A stretch of 28,826 nucleotides of DNA from a virus. Positions 1 through 16,608 of the stretch are shown piece by piece. Location of the stretch: the IMG/VR virus record IMGVR_UViG_3300034374_004725, positions 1 to 28,826 of that record, one strand, 5' to 3'. The position numbers were made by a program, and so were the translations under genes. The notes beneath the pieces are model-generated. The model was not told where the DNA came from, made no database searches, and was given only the letters and a program-made list of their open reading frames with translations. Within the stretch, counting starts at the first letter, position 1. Every line of letters starts with the position of its first letter.

Positions 1-177
1 TTAGCTGATATACGTGGTGCTAAAGCACAAGCTAGAATGGAACAAAAATTAGGAGTTTCTGTTACAAAACCTAAAGATAGACCTGTATCTTTTTATAGTA
101 GAAAACAAGATGTTCCAGCAGTTACTAGACGAGAAAATGAATTTATAAAAAAATTAAAACGTGATATGGGTTATTAA
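1..177 (+). CDS. C-terminal end of a truncated late gene
   Basis: The first 58 codons of the window are open in frame 1 and end in TAA, whose last A is the first base of the next ATG. The piece is basic (ends FIKKLKRDMGY) and predicted soluble, with no motif I recognise. Its position just before a large internal virion protein and its one-base coupling to it suggest another virion or ejection protein of the late operon. The start lies outside the window, so size and domain content are unknown. Confidence 0.75.
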   Translation, partial: LADIRGAKAQARMEQKLGVSVTKPKDRPVSFYSRKQDVPAVTRRENEFIKKLKRDMGY

Positions 178-3100
178 TGTCCAATGAGTTATATCTTAAT
201 GATACACAACTTAATGATCCAATAAACGACCTTCAAGACGGGATCCAAGATCCTACACAATCTCAAGAACAATCACCTCCTGGTTTCTTTTCATCATTGC
301 GTAACCCTGTAGAGTTAATGCTTGAAGACTCTTTACCTGCTTCTTTATATCAATGGATGACAGGCAATACTAAAAAAGTACAAGCTGAAAAAGCTTTAAA
401 GTTTTTACAACAATATCCTCAATTAGAAGGTTCTGGTCAATACAATGAAGCTTTACGTATTTATAAAAAATTTGGATATCTATTAGAAAATGACGAAGAA
501 CATTCTTTTGATGCAAAAGAAATATTAAATATGGCTAAAAAGTATCCTGGTGTAATGGGAGCAGAATTAGTCAATATGTTAATTGCAGATCCTTATTTAT
601 TACTTCTTCCATCTACCATGTTTTCTAAATTAGGTAGAGGTATGGTAAATGCTGGTAAATTAAAATACTCTAATAAGTTTAAATCATTACCTACTAAAGC
701 TAAAGATATAATTTCATTACAAGCTAAACGAGATATTAAACATGGTGCTATGGCATCTGTATTATTACCATTTGCATTTAGTACTGGTTTACAATTAGGA
801 GAAAAAGGTGAGATATCTGCAAGTCGTACTACAGCAGAAACTACTTTTGGAGCAACTGCTGGATTACTTATGTCATTAACATTTGGTGGTATATCAGCAT
901 TAGCTAGTAGAGATATAGGAATTGATCCTGCTAAATTTAATGAATCATTTATTAAACGTGTTAACAGTTATAAAAATCCTTTAGATGCTTTAGAATTTAA
1001 TGAAAATGGAGTTATTAAATCACTAGATGATACATTAAAAGATCTTAGAGCTACAATTAAAGATTTAGATCCAGTAACTAAATATGAAATTATTATTGGT
1101 GGTAAACCTTTTAAGTTTACTAAAGCCGAAGCTGAAGCAGCTTCTATTACTTCTAATGTAAGAACAGTTAGAGAATCAGCTTATGATGCTATTAAAAGTT
1201 CTGCTATTAAAGCAAGTAGTCTTGGAACAATAGGTGCAGTAGCACAATTCTTAACTGAAGAAGACGAAAAATTAAAAGAATCTTTAATTGGTTTTGGTGC
1301 TGGAGTAAGTGTATATGCTGCATATAAAGGATTGGCTAAAGCATTTGGTTGGGCAAAAAAAGTTCCTCAAGCTACAGTTGATTTTGAAATAATGGAACAA
1401 GCCACTAATATTTTAAACGCTAAAGTAAATAGCGAAGTTGGCAATATTATTGCTATGTTTAAAAATGTTGTTCCTGAACCTACTAGCCGTAGAAAAATAT
1501 TTCATTACATACAAGGTACTACAGTTAATGATAAATTAAACTATTCTTCTACAGGAAGAGTGTTGACCAAAAAAGATTTAACTACATTAGAATTAGAAGG
1601 TGCAGAAATGATACGTAAAACATTAGATACTATTTATGATACATTACAAAAAGAGTTTACAGATATTCCTTTTACATTTAACTATAGAAGCAATTACCTT
1701 CCTTTAATATTTGAAGACTTTAGTGGTGCAAATAAATTTAATTACACAGATGAAACAATACGTAGTTTTGGTAATGCCTCTACTTCAAGTAGATTTTTTT
1801 ATAAACGTACTTTTGATTCTATTAACGAAGCTCTAAAAGTTGGTAAAAAAATTAAACCTGGCATGGATGATCCTGCTGAATTATTAAGAGTATATACATT
1901 TGCTTTATCTAAAGCATTAACTAATAAAAACTTAATACATTATTTAAAAAATAAAAATATTATTATTGGCAAAACTGTTAATAATAACCCAATAAGTCTT
2001 CGTTTATTTTACACTAAACAAAATAGACAATTTATACCCAAAAATTACCAAGAACAGTTTAAGCCATATAAGCATCGTATTTTGGGAGATCAAGAAGTTT
2101 ATGTACACCAAGATATAATAAAATCTTTAGAAATGATATTTGATGCAAGTGATGAACCAAAACTAATAGGAGGATTGTTTACTATTAATTTAATGATGAA
2201 ACGATTAGCAGTAGCAGCATCTTTTTTTCATGCTGGTGCTTTAGTTGAAAGTATGATTTTTGCTGGAAATTCATTTAAAACAATAGGTAAATTTTTAAAT
2301 CCAAGAAGCAAACAAGAAATTCTTCAGATGATAGAAAATCCACTTCTACAACAAAATAATTTTAAAAATATATTAAATATAAAAGAAGAAAATATGAATA
2401 ATCTTTTAACAGCAGCTAATAAATTTGGGTTTAAAAATTTAATTGATTTTGCTAAAGCATCTAATTTAAAAATATCTACCCCAGAAGATGTTGGTTTTGA
2501 TAGATTTTATGCAACTATAAGACAAATAGAACAACTTATTAATCATCAATTTGGTTTTAAAGCAACTGGAAAAGTAGAAAAAGTTTTTAAATGGTTTGAT
2601 AAAATTACTTGGGATCGTTTATTTTCACAAGCTAAAATTTATACATTTTTAAGACAACTAGATAAATTAGTAAAACCAGGAGATACTAAATCTGTTGTTT
2701 ATAATAAAGCTAAAATAGCAGCACAATTTACTAATGATGCATTTGGTGGTCAAGACTGGGTAGCAATTACACAAAAAATAACAAATCCAATATTTAAAAA
2801 ATTAGCACAAACTTTATTTGCTCCTGGCTCTAGAGGATATATGCAATTGTTACTGTTTGCTCCAGACTGGACTATATCTAATATTAGAATTATAGCTAAA
2901 TCATTACCTGCATTTGAATCTGATCCTATAACTAGAAGTATGTATCAAGCATACTTTGCAAAAGCTGCATTAATGTACGGAACTATTGGTACAGCACTCA
3001 ATTATATATTTAGTGGACATTCTCAATTAGAAAATAAAGATCCTACAAGAATAGATTTAGGTGATGGTCAAGTTCTTACATTTAGTAAACAATTAATGGA

Positions 3101-3488
3101 ACCGTTTCATTGGATTACTGATCCACAAAATACTGCTCTTAAAAAAATAGGTTCTGTACCTAGAGCAATTATTGAAATATTAACTAATAAAGAATATTTA
3201 ACTACCAAATGGAGTCCTAATTTAACTACTAAAGATGATACAGCTATTGAAAAAGCTATAAAAATAGGTGGCAAAGCAGGTGAAAAATTCTTACCTATTT
3301 GGTTACTTAGCTCAGTACGCACAATATCTGATAGATATGAACAAGAAGGTATTAGTCCAGACTTGGCTTCTGATGTTGCTTTAAATTTTGTATTAGGACA
3401 ATTAGGTCATCCAAGATATAAAGGGCCTAGAACCAGTCAATATAAACTTGCAGGTCTAACTAGATCTCCATATGAAACATTATTTTAA
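177..3488 (+). CDS. Large internal virion / DNA-ejection protein (1103 aa)
   Basis: This is the largest gene in the window. The N-terminal 55 residues are Asp/Gln-rich. Hydrophobic or Gly/Ala-rich stretches follow near residues 130-150, 190-245, 350-390 and 690-725, alternating with long charged helical regions. The C-terminal third has a FAPDWT motif, which I associate with large internal virion proteins of podoviruses. Such proteins sit in the capsid and are ejected with the genome, forming a conduit across the envelope. Length and multiple membrane-seeking segments fit this role, as does the position among virion and lysis genes. No lytic transglycosylase or protease motif is evident. The start is the ATG of a TAATG overlap with the upstream gene. 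The specific role is inference. Confidence 0.72.
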   Translation: MSNELYLNDTQLNDPINDLQDGIQDPTQSQEQSPPGFFSSLRNPVELMLEDSLPASLYQWMTGNTKKVQAEKALKFLQQYPQLEGSGQYNEALRIYKKFGYLLENDEEHSFDAKEILNMAKKYPGVMGAELVNMLIADPYLLLLPSTMFSKLGRGMVNAGKLKYSNKFKSLPTKAKDIISLQAKRDIKHGAMASVLLPFAFSTGLQLGEKGEISASRTTAETTFGATAGLLMSLTFGGISALASRDIGIDPAKFNESFIKRVNSYKNPLDALEFNENGVIKSLDDTLKDLRATIKDLDPVTKYEIIIGGKPFKFTKAEAEAASITSNVRTVRESAYDAIKSSAIKASSLGTIGAVAQFLTEEDEKLKESLIGFGAGVSVYAAYKGLAKAFGWAKKVPQATVDFEIMEQATNILNAKVNSEVGNIIAMFKNVVPEPTSRRKIFHYIQGTTVNDKLNYSSTGRVLTKKDLTTLELEGAEMIRKTLDTIYDTLQKEFTDIPFTFNYRSNYLPLIFEDFSGANKFNYTDETIRSFGNASTSSRFFYKRTFDSINEALKVGKKIKPGMDDPAELLRVYTFALSKALTNKNLIHYLKNKNIIIGKTVNNNPISLRLFYTKQNRQFIPKNYQEQFKPYKHRILGDQEVYVHQDIIKSLEMIFDASDEPKLIGGLFTINLMMKRLAVAASFFHAGALVESMIFAGNSFKTIGKFLNPRSKQEILQMIENPLLQQNNFKNILNIKEENMNNLLTAANKFGFKNLIDFAKASNLKISTPEDVGFDRFYATIRQIEQLINHQFGFKATGKVEKVFKWFDKITWDRLFSQAKIYTFLRQLDKLVKPGDTKSVVYNKAKIAAQFTNDAFGGQDWVAITQKITNPIFKKLAQTLFAPGSRGYMQLLLFAPDWTISNIRIIAKSLPAFESDPITRSMYQAYFAKAALMYGTIGTALNYIFSGHSQLENKDPTRIDLGDGQVLTFSKQLMEPFHWITDPQNTALKKIGSVPRAIIEILTNKEYLTTKWSPNLTTKDDTAIEKAIKIGGKAGEKFLPIWLLSSVRTISDRYEQEGISPDLASDVALNFVLGQLGHPRYKGPRTSQYKLAGLTRSPYETLF

Positions 3489-7506: not shown

Positions 7507-7992
7507 TTAAAAAGGTATATCTTCAGAAACAAACTCAGCAGATAAAATCTTTTTAGCAAGTTTATCTACTTCAGTAAATACAGTATCGTATTCACTAACT
7601 TCTTTATGTGGCAATACAGAAGATAGCAAATTTGACATTGTTAATCTGTATTTTTCTTTCCATTGGTCTGCACTACTTTGACCATTAGAAACTGGTTTAG
7701 ATTTAACCATGGGTGCTGGTGCAGGACTACCTTCAGTAGCATCCTTCCAATCCATTGGTTCTATTTTGATACAAGATTGATTGTTAGATCCTGGTTTTTT
7801 TATTTTATAACCAGTAACCTTAACTCTATCTCCCTTGTTCATTTGTCTACAATTCTGAGGTACAAATAATTTTCTATCAGTCTGATCATCTAACTTTACA
7901 GATAACCAGTATTTAACAGGATTATCTTGATCATGAATGTCTTTTAACCCCTGTATTGTAGCTTCATACGACTCTACTGCATTTTCACTCAT
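7507..7992 (-). CDS. Single-stranded DNA-binding-like protein (161 aa)
   Basis: The C terminus is SEDIPF, the acidic-then-IPF tip that bacterial SSBs use to recruit replication and repair partners. The N-terminal 85 residues are beta-rich (YWLSVKLDDQTDRKLFV, then GDRVKVTGYKIKK), compatible with an OB fold. A Pro/Ser/Lys linker precedes a helical C-terminal segment. I chose ATG 7992 because AAAAGGAAAAAT precedes it. An upstream in-frame start at 8052 would overlap the exonuclease gene. It follows the exonuclease, as in phage recombination modules. The OB fold is inferred from pattern, and the tail motif is seen directly. Confidence 0.72.
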   Translation of the reverse strand: MSENAVESYEATIQGLKDIHDQDNPVKYWLSVKLDDQTDRKLFVPQNCRQMNKGDRVKVTGYKIKKPGSNNQSCIKIEPMDWKDATEGSPAPAPMVKSKPVSNGQSSADQWKEKYRLTMSNLLSSVLPHKEVSEYDTVFTEVDKLAKKILSAEFVSEDIPF

Positions 7993-8027
7993 ATTTTTCC
8001 TTTTGTTTATTTTGTTTATTATGGTTT

Positions 8028-8816
8028 TTAAATTTTCCATATTGTATTCCAAATATCAGTAGCAAACTTTTTAGCTTCTGTCATTCCTTTTCCCCAACGG
8101 AAATTATCCATTGTTAATGGAAACATTTTGACTACATCGTCTTTAGATTTAGCTACTGTACAAATATGTTCGATTGTTCGAAATACTTGTATTAAGTCTA
8201 TATCTGGAATTCTGTCTATCATATCTACTGCTTCTTGATCTTTTGCAGACGCATACAATAACATAGTAGGTTTATTGTAAATGCGTTTGTATAAGTATTG
8301 TTGTCTTACATCTGATGCTTTTGGGTACCAATTAGCATCTAATTTACCAGACTTTAATCTTTTAAGATAAGCGGTAGCTTTAGTATCTATAATTACATCT
8401 TCAAACTCAAAGTCAGTAATACATTTAATTGGCTTAATTAAACCTTCTTGATTTATAATTTTTTCATTTTGATAACTAATTACTTTACCAAATTCTTTTA
8501 ATGAATTAGTAAACTTTACAGCTATTTCTTGACACCAATAAAGTTCATCACATTCAATTTCTTCAGCATTTGTTTTAGTGTCATTAGCTTCTGCATACAA
8601 TCTTCTAAATGCTGATTCTGCACCAGATTTAATAAGATCTTCTGTTTCTCCTTTTAGTCCTTCTTGTGCTGCTTCTTCAGCAGCTAATCCCATTAACATT
8701 CTTGCATTAGCTGGTTCTTTGTAGTCAAATAATTCTGTAATAATCCAGTATGCTGGACTATCTACAAAAGAATTACCTCTACTGGCACTATGTCTATAGT
8801 CTTCTCTTAGTATCAT
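8028..8816 (-). CDS. PD-(D/E)XK family exonuclease (262 aa)
   Basis: Nuclease motifs appear in order: GLAAEEAAQEG near residues 43-53 (the conserved Glu helix), D140 and then IIDTKAT at 142-148 giving the D-x-K core (D144, K146), and RQQYLYKRIYN at 171-181 with the Q-x-x-x-Y motif of RecB/Cas4/lambda-exonuclease-like enzymes. Length fits a single-domain phage exonuclease. It probably degrades one strand of duplex DNA to start recombination, feeding the SSB-like protein encoded next. The ATG follows AAAAAAGGAGAAAAA. It lies opposite the HNH gene across a 90-base divergent spacer with a large inverted repeat. Confidence 0.85.
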   Translation of the reverse strand: MILREDYRHSASRGNSFVDSPAYWIITELFDYKEPANARMLMGLAAEEAAQEGLKGETEDLIKSGAESAFRRLYAEANDTKTNAEEIECDELYWCQEIAVKFTNSLKEFGKVISYQNEKIINQEGLIKPIKCITDFEFEDVIIDTKATAYLKRLKSGKLDANWYPKASDVRQQYLYKRIYNKPTMLLYASAKDQEAVDMIDRIPDIDLIQVFRTIEHICTVAKSKDDVVKMFPLTMDNFRWGKGMTEAKKFATDIWNTIWKI

Positions 8817-8906: not shown

Positions 8907-9278
8907 ATGCAAAAAACTAAAAAATTTCGTAGTAAAAAATACTTGATGTGGGTAGCAAATAAACCATGTTTACTTTGTATGACAGAACCTTGCCAAGCAC
9001 ATCATATTACAATTGCTGAGCATAGAGGTTTTGGTCAAAAAGTTTCAGATAATTACACTATACCTTTATGTTATCCACATCATCATTTATTACATATGAC
9101 AGGTGAACGTAAGTTTTGGCAAAAATTAGGTATTAATCCTAAATTCTATTCTGAATTGCTATATGTTACATATAATCAAAATAAATTAGAATATGATCAG
9201 TATTTATGGGAAAACATGTATAAAAAGGTTACACCTTTAATTAAAGCTAATATTGATTTCCTAACGTCAGTCAAATAG
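8907..9278 (+). CDS. HNH endonuclease, Ref/DUF968-like (123 aa)
   Basis: The protein shows a zinc-binding C21-x2-C24, AHH at 31-33, D48 and then PLC (53-55) followed by HHHLLH (58-63), and GERKFW. This is the layout of the HNH nuclease in the Ref/DUF968-type group of phage recombination nucleases. It likely nicks or cuts DNA during phage recombination. Homing is also possible but less typical for this subtype. It lies on the opposite strand to the surrounding operon and lacks a Shine-Dalgarno sequence. The first half is basic. It opens a three-gene rightward island. Confidence 0.83.
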   Translation: MQKTKKFRSKKYLMWVANKPCLLCMTEPCQAHHITIAEHRGFGQKVSDNYTIPLCYPHHHLLHMTGERKFWQKLGINPKFYSELLYVTYNQNKLEYDQYLWENMYKKVTPLIKANIDFLTSVK

Positions 9279-9299
9279 AATGGTTTAATTCTTTTAATT

Positions 9300-9557
9300 A
9301 TGGCTAAAATCTACAAGTTTACAAATAAAAATAAATCAGAGAATTTTATTGATAAAGTAAATCCTCAATCTATTTCTGAGTATCTTGCTGAGCAGCACCC
9401 AGATCTTCCCAAAAGAATAATTAGCGCTATGTCTTTAGCAATGATTTATTCAACATATCTTTCCATGGTTTGTGAAGAAGAAAACTATTCTTGTCAAAGT
9501 TTATTTGAAGAACCTATAGATTTTCTAACTTCTTATGGTAAAGAAACGCTCCACTAA
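9300..9557 (+). CDS. Hypothetical protein in HNH island (85 aa)
   Basis: This soluble protein has a basic N-terminal 16 residues followed by helices (SISEYLAEQHPDLPKRI and AMSLAMIYSTYLSMV) and an acidic end with two Cys. There is no known motif. The ATG follows an AT-rich stretch without a ribosome site, like the HNH gene before it. The next gene overlaps its end by 23 bases. Its fate is tied to the island and not to the surrounding leftward operon. Confidence 0.6.
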   Translation: MAKIYKFTNKNKSENFIDKVNPQSISEYLAEQHPDLPKRIISAMSLAMIYSTYLSMVCEEENYSCQSLFEEPIDFLTSYGKETLH

Positions 9558-9810
9558 AAAAATAAAATCTAAAATAGATTTTCCTTATAAAAAGATATCT
9601 ATATCTTGGTTTGATGCTAATTCTGATTCTGGTTGGTTAACATTAGAAGAAATGCAAAAACATGAACCAGCATTATGTCATACTAATGCTTGGGTATTTG
9701 AAGAAAATAACAAATTTATTAAATTGTTTGGTACTTACTCTATTGATAAAGAAACACAATCTATAGAATTTGGTGAAATCATATGCATTCCAAAAATTTG
9801 GATTGTTTAA
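9535..9810 (+). CDS. Conserved small beta-rich protein (91 aa)
   Basis: After a basic start (KKRSTKKIKSK) the sequence contains ISWFDANSDSGWL and a C-terminal ICIPKIWIV, with strands between. I recognise the pattern (W-D...SGW near the N terminus, IP near the C terminus) from hypothetical proteins of marine phages, function unknown. It overlaps the preceding gene by 23 bases. Its TAA ends at 9810 and the opposing gene's stop begins at 9811, so the two convergent genes abut without a spacer. Confidence 0.65.
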   Translation: MVKKRSTKKIKSKIDFPYKKISISWFDANSDSGWLTLEEMQKHEPALCHTNAWVFEENNKFIKLFGTYSIDKETQSIEFGEIICIPKIWIV

Positions 9811-10467: not shown

Positions 10468-10992
10468 TTATGCTATTTGTTTGTTTTGTGTTAATTGATG
10501 ACTTACTATCTCATACACTTTCCAACATGTTTTACCTGCTGGATTATCTTTCCAACAATAATCTTTATTATCTTTGGATTTAAGATGATGTAGTACAGTT
10601 GTATGATCTCTATTAATTGCAGTAGCTATTTGTGGCGTACTTAATTTAGATACATGTCTTAATACATTAATAATAACTGATCTAGGTCTTACATATTTTT
10701 TAAGTCTGTTAGAACTTAATAAATTGTTTTTATCTACAGCAAATTGTAAACAAACTGAAGTGATTACAAAATTAGTCAATCTATTTATTTCTGCTGTATT
10801 GTAATTACTTTTAGTATATTCAGCTTTTATTTTTGTTTTTACTGTTTCTTTATTGTTGTTAAGTTGTTGCAAAGCTAATCTATATCCAGCTTTAACACCC
10901 ATTTTGTACATAAAACTATCTTCTTTAGATATGTTTTGAAATTGAACAGGTTTTAGTCTTTGTCTTAATTCTTGTTTGTGTATTAATTTCAT
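10468..10992 (-). CDS. DnaA domain IV-like DNA-binding protein (174 aa)
   Basis: Residues 70-140 match the DnaA C-terminal helix-turn-helix. RPRSVIINVLRHVSKLSTPQ is followed by IATAINRDHTTVLHHLKSK (residues 122-140), where DHTTVLHH is the signature that contacts DnaA boxes. The N-terminal half lacks an AAA+ ATPase: no Walker motifs are seen, and the whole protein is about a third of normal DnaA length. It could bind the phage origin, recruit host replication proteins, or compete with host DnaA. ATG follows TTAAGGGACAT. It sits mid-operon among small helical genes. Confidence 0.85.
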   Translation of the reverse strand: MKLIHKQELRQRLKPVQFQNISKEDSFMYKMGVKAGYRLALQQLNNNKETVKTKIKAEYTKSNYNTAEINRLTNFVITSVCLQFAVDKNNLLSSNRLKKYVRPRSVIINVLRHVSKLSTPQIATAINRDHTTVLHHLKSKDNKDYCWKDNPAGKTCWKVYEIVSHQLTQNKQIA

Positions 10993-13964: not shown

Positions 13965-14126
13965 CTTCCTCCTTAATCGTTGATACTTTGCATAAGTTTT
14001 TTTATATTCTTGTGCAAATTCTTTTGTTCCAGGTTGAGGATCTACATCTTGAGTTAACCAGTTATAACCTGCTCTTAATGCATAGCCACCTACTGTATAT
14101 CCAATAAATCTAACTACGTTCCACAT
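13938..14126 (-). CDS. Hypothetical basic protein (62 aa)
   Basis: A mildly hydrophobic N terminus (MWNVVRFIGYTVGGYALRAG) could associate with membrane. The C-terminal half is a basic helix (YKKTYAKYQRLRRKYDAY). ATG follows GAGAGGATA. It overlaps the Xre gene by 17 bases, and its last codons contain the ribosome site of the next ORF. No family recognised. Confidence 0.6.
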   Translation of the reverse strand: MWNVVRFIGYTVGGYALRAGYNWLTQDVDPQPGTKEFAQEYKKTYAKYQRLRRKYDAYKQNN

Positions 14127-14424
14127 TATCCTCTCTTTCTTTTATTACATCGTTAATTGCCTCTTTAATTTGTTGTGTGGTCAGCTCACTTGGGAGCTGA
14201 ACATCAACAAATAAATTATCCAACTCAGCAAACTTAATATTAAGAACTTTAAATAAATAGATTAGCTTAGGAAATGGCAATCTATTCTTTCCTTTCTCAT
14301 ATTTTTGTATTTGCTGAAATGAAATATTTAATTTCTTGCCAACTTCTGATTGGCTATATCCTAAATGTTTTCTTTTGTTCCTTAACATCCACCCAATTTT
14401 GTTTGAGCAATCTCTTTCTTTCAT
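14110..14424 (-). CDS. Xre/Cro-type helix-turn-helix regulator (104 aa)
   Basis: Residues about 10-65 form a classic HTH_3 domain: IGWMLRNKRKHLGYSQSEVG, then KLNISFQQIQKYEKGKNRL, where SQSEVGKKLNIS is the helix-turn and QQIQKYEKG the recognition helix. The C-terminal tail (LTTQQIKEAINDVIKERE) probably dimerises. It likely binds operators in the early/late control region. I chose ATG 14424 with AGAGGAAG nine bases upstream. An ATG 21 bases earlier lacks a ribosome site. It overlaps the upstream gene by 71 bases, an unusually long overlap. Presence of a repressor-like protein without an integrase is notable. Confidence 0.83.
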   Translation of the reverse strand: MKERDCSNKIGWMLRNKRKHLGYSQSEVGKKLNISFQQIQKYEKGKNRLPFPKLIYLFKVLNIKFAELDNLFVDVQLPSELTTQQIKEAINDVIKEREDNVERS

Positions 14425-14671
14425 ATATTTCTTCCTCTTTTCCATATAATTTATTTAACACAAGCAACTCACGCTTGTCTGAGTTTGCTTGTTGTCTTGT
14501 CAGCACTCTAATTGTATTAGGATGTTTATGAGTATCATTTAATCTGACTAATGACAAATAACCTTTTTGAGGCCACTCTATTTCAACATAGGTGGTGTAC
14601 TCTATATAGTTTCGCCACCACCACATCCTCTCTATTTGCACAAACCCTGTAAACTCAAGGTTGTATATCAT
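14354..14671 (-). CDS. Hypothetical aromatic-rich protein (105 aa)
   Basis: The N-terminal half is beta-rich and aromatic (FTGFVQIERMWWWRNYIEYT), the C-terminal half a basic helix with NKLYGKEEEIYERKRLLKQ. ATG 14671 follows CGAGGTTTAGAA. An in-frame start at 14737 would overlap the previous gene. It overlaps the Xre gene by 71 bases. No family recognised. Confidence 0.6.
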   Translation of the reverse strand: MIYNLEFTGFVQIERMWWWRNYIEYTTYVEIEWPQKGYLSLVRLNDTHKHPNTIRVLTRQQANSDKRELLVLNKLYGKEEEIYERKRLLKQNWVDVKEQKKTFRI

Positions 14672-15774: not shown

Positions 15775-15942
15775 CTATTTACCTTTCTTACAGTTAGTTA
15801 AATAGTTATTAATAATGTTCCTCTTTAGTTCTTTTCTTATATCATGAGGATGTTTCTTTTTAGTTGGTACTGGTTGTATAGGCATATCACTTAAGTCAAA
15901 TAGTGAGTATTGTGCCTCATTTATGTGTACTACTTTATACAT
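15775..15942 (-). CDS. First gene of leftward operon, hypothetical (55 aa)
   Basis: ATG 15942 follows AATAAGAAAGGATAAATCT. An in-frame start at 15996 would lie within the promoter and lacks a ribosome site. The N-terminal half (MYKVVHINEAQYSLFD) is followed by Pro-rich and basic segments (PVPTKKKHPHDIRKELKRN), consistent with nucleic-acid or protein binding. It is the promoter-proximal early gene. No family recognised. Confidence 0.6.
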   Translation of the reverse strand: MYKVVHINEAQYSLFDLSDMPIQPVPTKKKHPHDIRKELKRNIINNYLTNCKKGK

Positions 15943-15963: not shown

Positions 15964-15977
15964 GTTATGGGGATAAC
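15964..15977 (-). promoter_or_regulatory. Small leader hairpin at the leftward promoter
   Basis: GTTAT (15964-15968) pairs with ATAAC (15973-15977) across GGGG, read as CCCC in the leftward RNA. It lies between the predicted start of transcription and AAGAAAGGATAAATCT-ATG. TGGGGATAA (15968-15976) is also one base from a DnaA box on the other strand. Confidence 0.5.
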
Positions 15978-15994
15978 AATCATATGTGGATATC

Positions 15995-16010
15995 ATTATA
16001 TCAATATAAT
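15995..16010. promoter_or_regulatory. Palindromic bidirectional -10 element
   Basis: TATAAT occurs on the minus strand at 16000-15995 and on the plus strand at 16005-16010, the two forming the near-perfect dyad ATTATATCAATATAAT. Leftward start is expected near 15988, just before the first early gene. Rightward start is expected near 16017, at the edge of the GC-rich block. No good -35 hexamer is seen for either, so an activator or extended interaction may be needed. Transcription is inferred, not shown. Confidence 0.55.
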
Positions 16011-16020
16011 TAATAACACA

Positions 16021-16166
16021 TTGACCGCGTCCTTACCAGTAAGGATCGCGGGCAAGGTGAAACCTTATGAATGTTAAAGCAACGAGCAACAGCGAGTTAC
16101 AACGATAACAACAATATGACATTTGCAACAGCAAATGACGGGTTTGTAAGTTACCCCAAGCGATAA
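16021..16166 (+). other. GC-rich hairpin-forming block (ncRNA, origin or 31-codon ORF)
   Basis: The first 50 bases are 52 percent GC by count, far above the surrounding DNA. Stems seen: CGCG plus CCTTA pairing with TAAGG plus CGCG (16026-16050); AAGGT/ACCTT near 16053-16065; AAC..GC/GC..GTT around AACA (about 16081-16098), with tandem G-A pairs; and a perfect CATTTGC/GCAAATG stem around AACA (about 16119-16136). GGGT/ACCC closes near 16140-16157. No tRNA T-loop or terminator U-run is present. An ORF from ATG 16071 to TAA 16166 could encode 31 residues but uses C-ending codons unlike the rest. The block may be a small RNA, an origin or operator DNA. Confidence 0.45.
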
Positions 16167-16274
16167 TAGATACAAGGTATAAATTATATATAGGGGAGGT
16201 ATCTACATCTCATAAATAAATAGGGGGGTTTGTTTATAAATAGTAGAATTATAATAACGGGTTTGTTATAATAA
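16138..16274. promoter_or_regulatory. Repeat cluster upstream of rightward operon
   Basis: GGGTTTGT occurs three times (16140-16147, 16226-16233, 16259-16266), twice within ACGGGTTTGT. TTATAATAA occurs twice, at 16249-16257 and 16266-16274, each holding a -10-like TATAAT. The second would start RNA near 16279, before CTGGAG and ATG 16300. TATAAATTATATATAGGGG lies at 16179-16195. The rest of 16167-16299 is AT-rich with no gene. Repeated sites suggest binding by the Xre, ribbon-helix-helix or DnaA-like protein. Confidence 0.5.
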
Positions 16275-16299: not shown

Positions 16300-16608
16300 A
16301 TGTATACAGCATTAGCAAGATTTGGTTATGGTATTGTAAAAGCATTACGACCAAGCAAAGTTAAAAAGCTATTAACACCTGCACTTGAGAAGGCTACTAA
16401 ACCTGCGTTTAAAGGCACCAAATATGCATCAGGAGAAGCAAAACTGATTAAAGGTATAGAAGGTGCTGCTCAGAAGGGTTATAAGGGCTATAAAAAGCTT
16501 TATGGAGCAACACTAGAAACTTCAGCAGGAAGAAAAGCTACCGCATCAGGATTAGGCGGTCTTGCTTTAGGATCCTTTCTTGCAGGGGATGATGAAGACG
16601 AGTATTAA
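16300..16608 (+). CDS. Basic protein with Gly-rich hydrophobic tail (102 aa)
   Basis: The first gene of the late rightward operon. A basic region (LRPSKVKKLLTPALEKATK and KGYKGYKKLYG) is followed by a Gly/Ala-rich hydrophobic segment with SGLGGLALGSFLAG and an acidic end DDEDEY. Three later genes repeat this architecture. ATG follows CTGGAGAATAAAATT. It may be a virion-associated, membrane-active or DNA-contacting protein. No known domain. Confidence 0.68.
   Translation: MYTALARFGYGIVKALRPSKVKKLLTPALEKATKPAFKGTKYASGEAKLIKGIEGAAQKGYKGYKKLYGATLETSAGRKATASGLGGLALGSFLAGDDEDEY

Follow-up and report, generated by a model that had tools for sequence, protein, structure and literature searches.

What does a virus keep in the short gap from which its early and late genes depart in opposite directions? 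The window, by which we mean the whole 28,826-nucleotide (28.8 kb) stretch of DNA analysed, is a piece of an unclassified podovirus-like genome, and an earlier note on its sequence had pointed to a GC-rich hairpin block between divergent operons as a candidate small RNA or origin. Our best reading is that the region is where the divergent early and late genes of a large uncultivated podovirus-like phage group are controlled. It consists of covarying, strand-specific hairpins and then a rigid bipartite element, always just before the late operon; the whole is called the cassette below. This anatomy is solid; the mechanism we infer, at somewhat less than an even chance. The control region seems undescribed so far, a conserved, covarying and unannotated control element in 40 clusters of uncultivated viruses.

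Two operons with a common starting region

The leftward (early) operon extends from about 15.9 kb to 6 kb, interrupted by a small + strand island at 8.9-9.8 kb, and the rightward (late) operon, from 16.3 kb on, carries TerS, TerL, portal, scaffold and capsid genes. In near-complete relatives the late operon is ~26 kb long and then meets the early operon. Early and late blocks both start at the control region, and its earlier placement between divergent operons is borne out. The TerL of the window shares 52% identity with the TerL of Pelagibacter phage HTVC106P. For the first early gene, a start at 15996 was dropped, as relatives share the ATG at 15942, which is preceded by a purine-rich ribosome-binding site.

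Several other genes were noted along the window. An Xre/Cro-type HTH protein, a candidate regulator, is encoded at 14110-14445 (- strand); many relatives conserve its gene close to the control region, at a distance of 1.3-2.5 kb on the left side. The gene at 10468-10992 (- strand) encodes a DnaA domain IV protein (Bac_DnaA_C, E = 6e-15) without the remainder of DnaA, and is present also in relative G001 and absent from nine other relatives searched. At 7507-8052 (- strand) there is a conserved early protein whose C-terminal DIPF resembles the tail of a single-strand-binding protein and which had no match in PHROG or NCBIfam. The island inside the leftward early block (8907-9810, + strand) holds three genes, the first an HNH endonuclease, and is kept in relatives. 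A conserved late protein of 1103 aa (177-3488, + strand) had no PHROG match.

Using TerL, ORF1 and the first early gene as queries, we obtained about 30 contigs that share this intergenic region, and an alignment of ORF1 added more; the ORF1-gathered set has 23 representatives of <85% identity. A scan of viral contigs with the pattern GGGTTT-N10-CC-N32/33-TAGGGGGGT returned 106 stretches. The cassette set comprises 182 sequences (some being one contig fetched repeatedly) in 40 sequence clusters of viral contigs, in which the region precedes the late (TerS/TerL) operon. TerL is encoded downstream in 79 of the 93 motif-picked loci, including all those with 4.5 kb of downstream room, and the motif is therefore highly specific, a precise marker for this uncultivated and mostly marine virus group. 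BLASTN against 50,697 phage records gave only short chance matches for the region of the window and none for those of three relatives, a stricter motif pattern had 0 matches in 257 Gb of cellular genomes, and scans of viral contigs with the 14-16-mers CGAGCAACAGCGAG and ATGAGCAACAGCGAAT returned mostly chance matches. HTVC106P, HTVC010P, Venkman and ctXG6705 lack the cassette, and no isolate carrying it was found in our searches.

Hairpins that covary and keep their orientation

The block had been described as about half G+C within AT-rich DNA, and by our count 26 of the 50 bases in 16021-16070 are G or C, against about 25-33% in the surroundings. The + strand from 16010 to 16200 folds at -47.9 kcal/mol, compared with -32.9 +/- 3.6 for shuffled sequences (n = 200; z = -4.17), none of which was as good; the - strand of the block has a similar z. 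All of the at least four stems reported earlier can be seen, namely H1, the two small hairpins and the dyad that follows them (Table 1), and the GC-AACA-GC loop context is indeed common to two of them. The limits proposed earlier, 16021-16166, enclose a real block and clip the structure, which begins with H1 at 16017 and reaches the end of the bipartite element at about 16207. The frame at 16071-16166 is no gene, because its 31 codons are open in only 4 of 40 clusters, with an early ATG in one. Rfam 15 gave nothing useful for the window at gathering or relaxed thresholds, and no match at or above the gathering threshold in 15 relatives, in keeping with the view that this is no known RNA. The hairpin block is non-random and non-coding.

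Table 1. Coordinates of the control region and of the genes on its two sides.
Feature	Position	Strand	Remarks
First leftward (early) gene	15775..15942	-	start ATG 15942, AGAAAGGA upstream; from sequence and relatives
Hairpin B remnant, degenerate at most	15975..16014	-	model R1, 5.9 bits, E 0.58
Candidate leftward promoter, putative -10 TATAAT	15995..16000	-	sequence only
Candidate rightward promoter, putative -10 TATAAT	16005..16010	+	6 nt before H1; p 0.03 in window
Hairpin H1, long stem with unpaired 3'-side bulge	16017..16059 (core 16025-16051)	+	bulged T16046
Small hairpin AAC-GA-GC-AACA-GC-GA-GTT, tandem G.A	16081..16098	+	
Small hairpin CATTTGC-AACA-GCAAATG, T-A pairs in place of tandem G.A	16120..16137	+	
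GGGT-n10-ACCC dyad, in left half of bipartite element	16140..16157	+	
Bipartite element, left half GGGTTT-N7-ACCCC	16140..16157	+	
Fixed-length spacer	16158..16189	+	many relatives have a variable dyad (F) of ~30 bp; in window weak or absent
Bipartite element, right half ATAGGGGAGGTATCTACA (consensus ATAGGGGGGTTTNNTACA)	16190..16207	+	its G-run is 53 nt from the first; single occurrence in each of seven genomes
Third G-run, then T-run	16223..16229	+	in part of relatives
Extended -10 type promoter candidate, putative TGTTATAAT	16264..16272	+	directly before ORF1; kept in the subgroup of the window
ORF1, first late gene, small protein of LARFGYG family	16300..16608	+	

Across relatives the order is H1, then one to several small hairpins, then the bipartite DNA element, with hairpin number and spacing differing from one relative to another. 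The 220 nt upstream of GGGTTT contain 1.98 hairpins of >=6 Watson-Crick pairs (40 clusters); shuffled sequences have 0.33, and windows drawn at random from the same genomes 0.57. For the 150 nt upstream of the motif in the 23 representatives, the mean fold z is -3.6 on the + strand and -2.6 on the - strand. The core of H1 reads CCGCG-TCCTTAC-CA-GTAAGGA-(T)-CGCGG in the window. When a bulge was searched for on either side, over half of the groups turned out to have one of 1 nt on the 3' side, and other groups have the larger 3' bulges AGC, AAU and UUCAAU; subgroup A3 was left out, as its MAFFT alignment was misplaced.

In the small hairpins the + strand loops and flanks are constant while the stems drift. 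To see the stems apart from the selection, hairpins were picked by their flanks and loop only (AGAC-N6-[AG]A[CT]A-N6-GAC). All nine unique hairpins obtained lie on the + strand; of the 54 positions in their arms 53 are paired, and the other is a G-T. Six of the seven pairs in their alignment are changed on both sides, which no shuffle equals; bases outside AGAC...GAC were partly consensus-filled in that alignment and were left out of use. Picks of GA-N2-AACA-N2-GA have the outer stems AAC/GTT, AGC/GCT and CAT/ATG and the inner stems GC/GC, AC/GT and GT/AC, together with two or three chance matches. The covariance check on homologous intergenic regions that the earlier note had suggested thus finds compensating paired changes in the stems. 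The GA/GA steps of the hairpin at 16081-16098 would be tandem sheared G.A pairs, and that at 16120-16137 (model R2, 20.0 bits, E 0.12) has TT/AA where relative L088 keeps GA/GA. Loops and flanks are specific to the + strand, and tandem G.A is sensible only there.

Wobbles in H1 and the small hairpins are rare compared with hairpin B, the pattern expected under selection on DNA, and the wobble test showed no strand bias (6 G-T and 8 A-C among inner pairs). With wobble states both unbiased and rare, single-stranded DNA fits these hairpins as well as RNA does, and here a leader-RNA reading is at its weakest.

Hairpin B (44-47 nt) stands left of H1, on the - strand, in L342, L175, L267 and about 20 other loci. 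In a set of 19 members that were chosen from - strand folds, a choice favouring this strand, 95.9% of cells pair on the - strand, with 11 pairs changed on both sides and frequent G-U, against 78.8% and 0 wobble substitutes on the + strand. An unbiased stem census of the far region gave 105 A-C and 45 G-T on the + strand, compared with 63 and 55 in shuffles, and the model of B matched three held-out contigs at E about 1e-6. Because of the - strand pairing with its G-U excess, the unbiased census and the held-out matches, B in relatives is most simply explained as RNA, belonging to the early transcript that runs leftward. At most a trace of it survives in the window.

A bipartite element with fixed spacing

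The bipartite element starts inside the reported block and spans GGGTTT-N7-ACCCC to ATAGGGGGG. In the 23 ORF1-gathered representatives a distance of 52-53 nt, nearly five helical turns, separates GGGTTT, the first G-run, from the second, which reads GGGGGG or GGGAGG, and the sequence between them differs. The spacing claim rests on this ORF1-picked set, while pattern columns and the spacing of pattern-picked stretches, being fixed by the search, were discounted. Outside the search pattern, the conserved columns are A13, C14 and C15 of ACCCC, an A at position -3, and the TACA that follows the second G-run. Each of the seven genomes or contigs checked for it (29-39 kb) holds a single copy of the motif. 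Its ends are conserved and its interior is variable, the sequence of dyad F differing between phages, and in about half of the groups the interior shows no excess RNA fold. We read the element as a putative DNA site for a protein or polymerase.

Pairing of the G-runs with CCCC as an RNA attenuator or terminator was rejected: both sides are near-invariant, the ACACC and ACCTT variants are uncompensated, and about half of the groups show no excess fold in the 60-nt spacer. Activator-dependent phage late promoters of the P2 Ogr type also have a dyad at a fixed distance upstream of the late operon. The present motif differs from theirs in sequence and occurs once per genome, and no such activator was identified.

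Possible roles of the control region

As a whole, the region is tentatively best explained, with a confidence that stays below even, by leader-RNA hairpins acting in cis and late control at the bipartite element. A rightward promoter would lie just left of H1 (TATAAT at 16005-16010 in the window), so that the hairpins would form the structured 5' leader of the rightward RNA. They may then influence RNA polymerase or the stability of the transcript in cis, for instance by anti-pausing or antitermination across the ~26 kb operon, while the bipartite element would bind a regulator or polymerase controlling late transcription. Dyad F could be an operator for the phage's own conserved Xre-type HTH protein, which we infer as its candidate ligand. 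No protein partner or terminator was identified for the leader reading. If the hairpins are a leader RNA acting on polymerase, they would provide a minimal route to expression of a ~26 kb operon by host RNA polymerase.

Hairpins or a short leader stand before long operons in lambda nut/boxB and in the lambda PR' late leader (6S RNA), with late control at one region. The cassette, in contrast, has no identified boxA/boxB or Q-type gene, and arrays different stems with constant loops. The put RNA of HK022, too, is a hairpin leader with which a long phage operon begins, and like put the cassette would act in cis on RNA polymerase (PMC9378689). Put is a nascent-leader RNA that contacts the beta' zinc-binding domain, and the architecture of the cassette is loosely similar: put has ~70 nt and two specific stem-loops, whereas the cassette has H1 and one to several modular hairpins with no sequence match; any shared function would be a predicted one. 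As to a promoter just upstream, from which put is transcribed, a candidate TATAAT stands 6 nt before H1 in the window (p 0.03 for the window alone), but over the clusters this placement lacks significance, with 7 of 38 reaching p <= 0.1. It is possible, if somewhat unlikely, that the hairpin arrays (flanks AGAC...GACA, loops AACA/GACA/GATA, drifting Watson-Crick stems) and the bipartite element of about five turns represent a new modular single-strand class, for the early-to-late switch or for replication start, with a mechanism not yet described.

A serious rival to the leader reading, although we consider it unlikely, is that the + strand hairpins act as single-stranded DNA, either as a priming or strand-initiation site or as a hairpin-dependent origin for the host replisome. 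Stems that are almost purely Watson-Crick, strand-specific loops and flanks, and the many loops of 2-3 nt (TT, AA, GAA), a size that suits DNA hairpins, agree with such a role, as do the DnaA-domain-IV protein encoded in the window and TGTGGATAT at 15985-15993, DnaA-box-like by eye. An origin, however, sits poorly with the GC skew, which remains positive along the full ~26 kb of the late operon, with no replichore flip inside, and changes sign only with gene strand, and no replication initiator was recognised among the early genes of one relative. The DnaA-domain-IV gene does not travel with the site, occurring in 1 of 10 cassette-bearing contigs, and a DnaA-dependent origin was rejected on this count and for want of a skew switch independent of gene strand; the origin proposed earlier has no positive support. 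Strand-specific hairpins with small loops are typical of ssDNA replicons, in their single-strand origins and hairpin priming sites, whereas the cassette viruses are tailed, have dsDNA and encode terminase, portal and capsid, and neither the skew nor the search for an initiator pointed to such a site. If single-stranded DNA is what matters, the hairpins would mark replication start in phages without recognisable initiators.

The dyads might instead be duplex DNA operators for phage repressors or activators, without any single-strand folding, which we hold to be improbable. Dyad F varies from phage to phage as an immunity-type operator would, the gene of a conserved Xre-type regulator lies nearby and wobbles are rare; yet a dimer operator has no need of loops and flanks that hold one orientation, of recurring tandem GA pairs, or of an off-centre bulge that in most groups H1 keeps to a single side. 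That the block yields a discrete trans-acting small RNA is more doubtful still, and we regard it as quite improbable. The fold is strong, conserved and about 100-150 nt long, but the window scan gave no clear + strand terminator, relatives vary in hairpin number and spacing, and the position of the block is bound to where the late operon begins. What stands of the earlier small RNA proposal is a structured single-strand element, because the stems covary, Rfam has no match and 16071-16166 is no gene; a discrete RNA gains no such support, and the hairpins run on into a conserved DNA element before the late operon. A packaging site (cos/pac or terminal repeat) recognised by terminase, to which the constant position 1.5-3 kb upstream of TerL and the rigid bipartite motif with its central dyad would be suited, is very improbable, as about a hundred contigs run through the region, large contigs are cut at differing places relative to it, and contig ends are scattered with no pile-up at one base (for metagenome contigs an indirect test).

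A T7-like promoter was also rejected, a single-subunit RNA polymerase (PF00940) being found in 1 of 9 contigs searched, some of them incomplete. In G009 (the contig of L254), a T7-type single-subunit RNA polymerase gene lies at the contig end (bases 5-511, - strand), and the same cassette is present.
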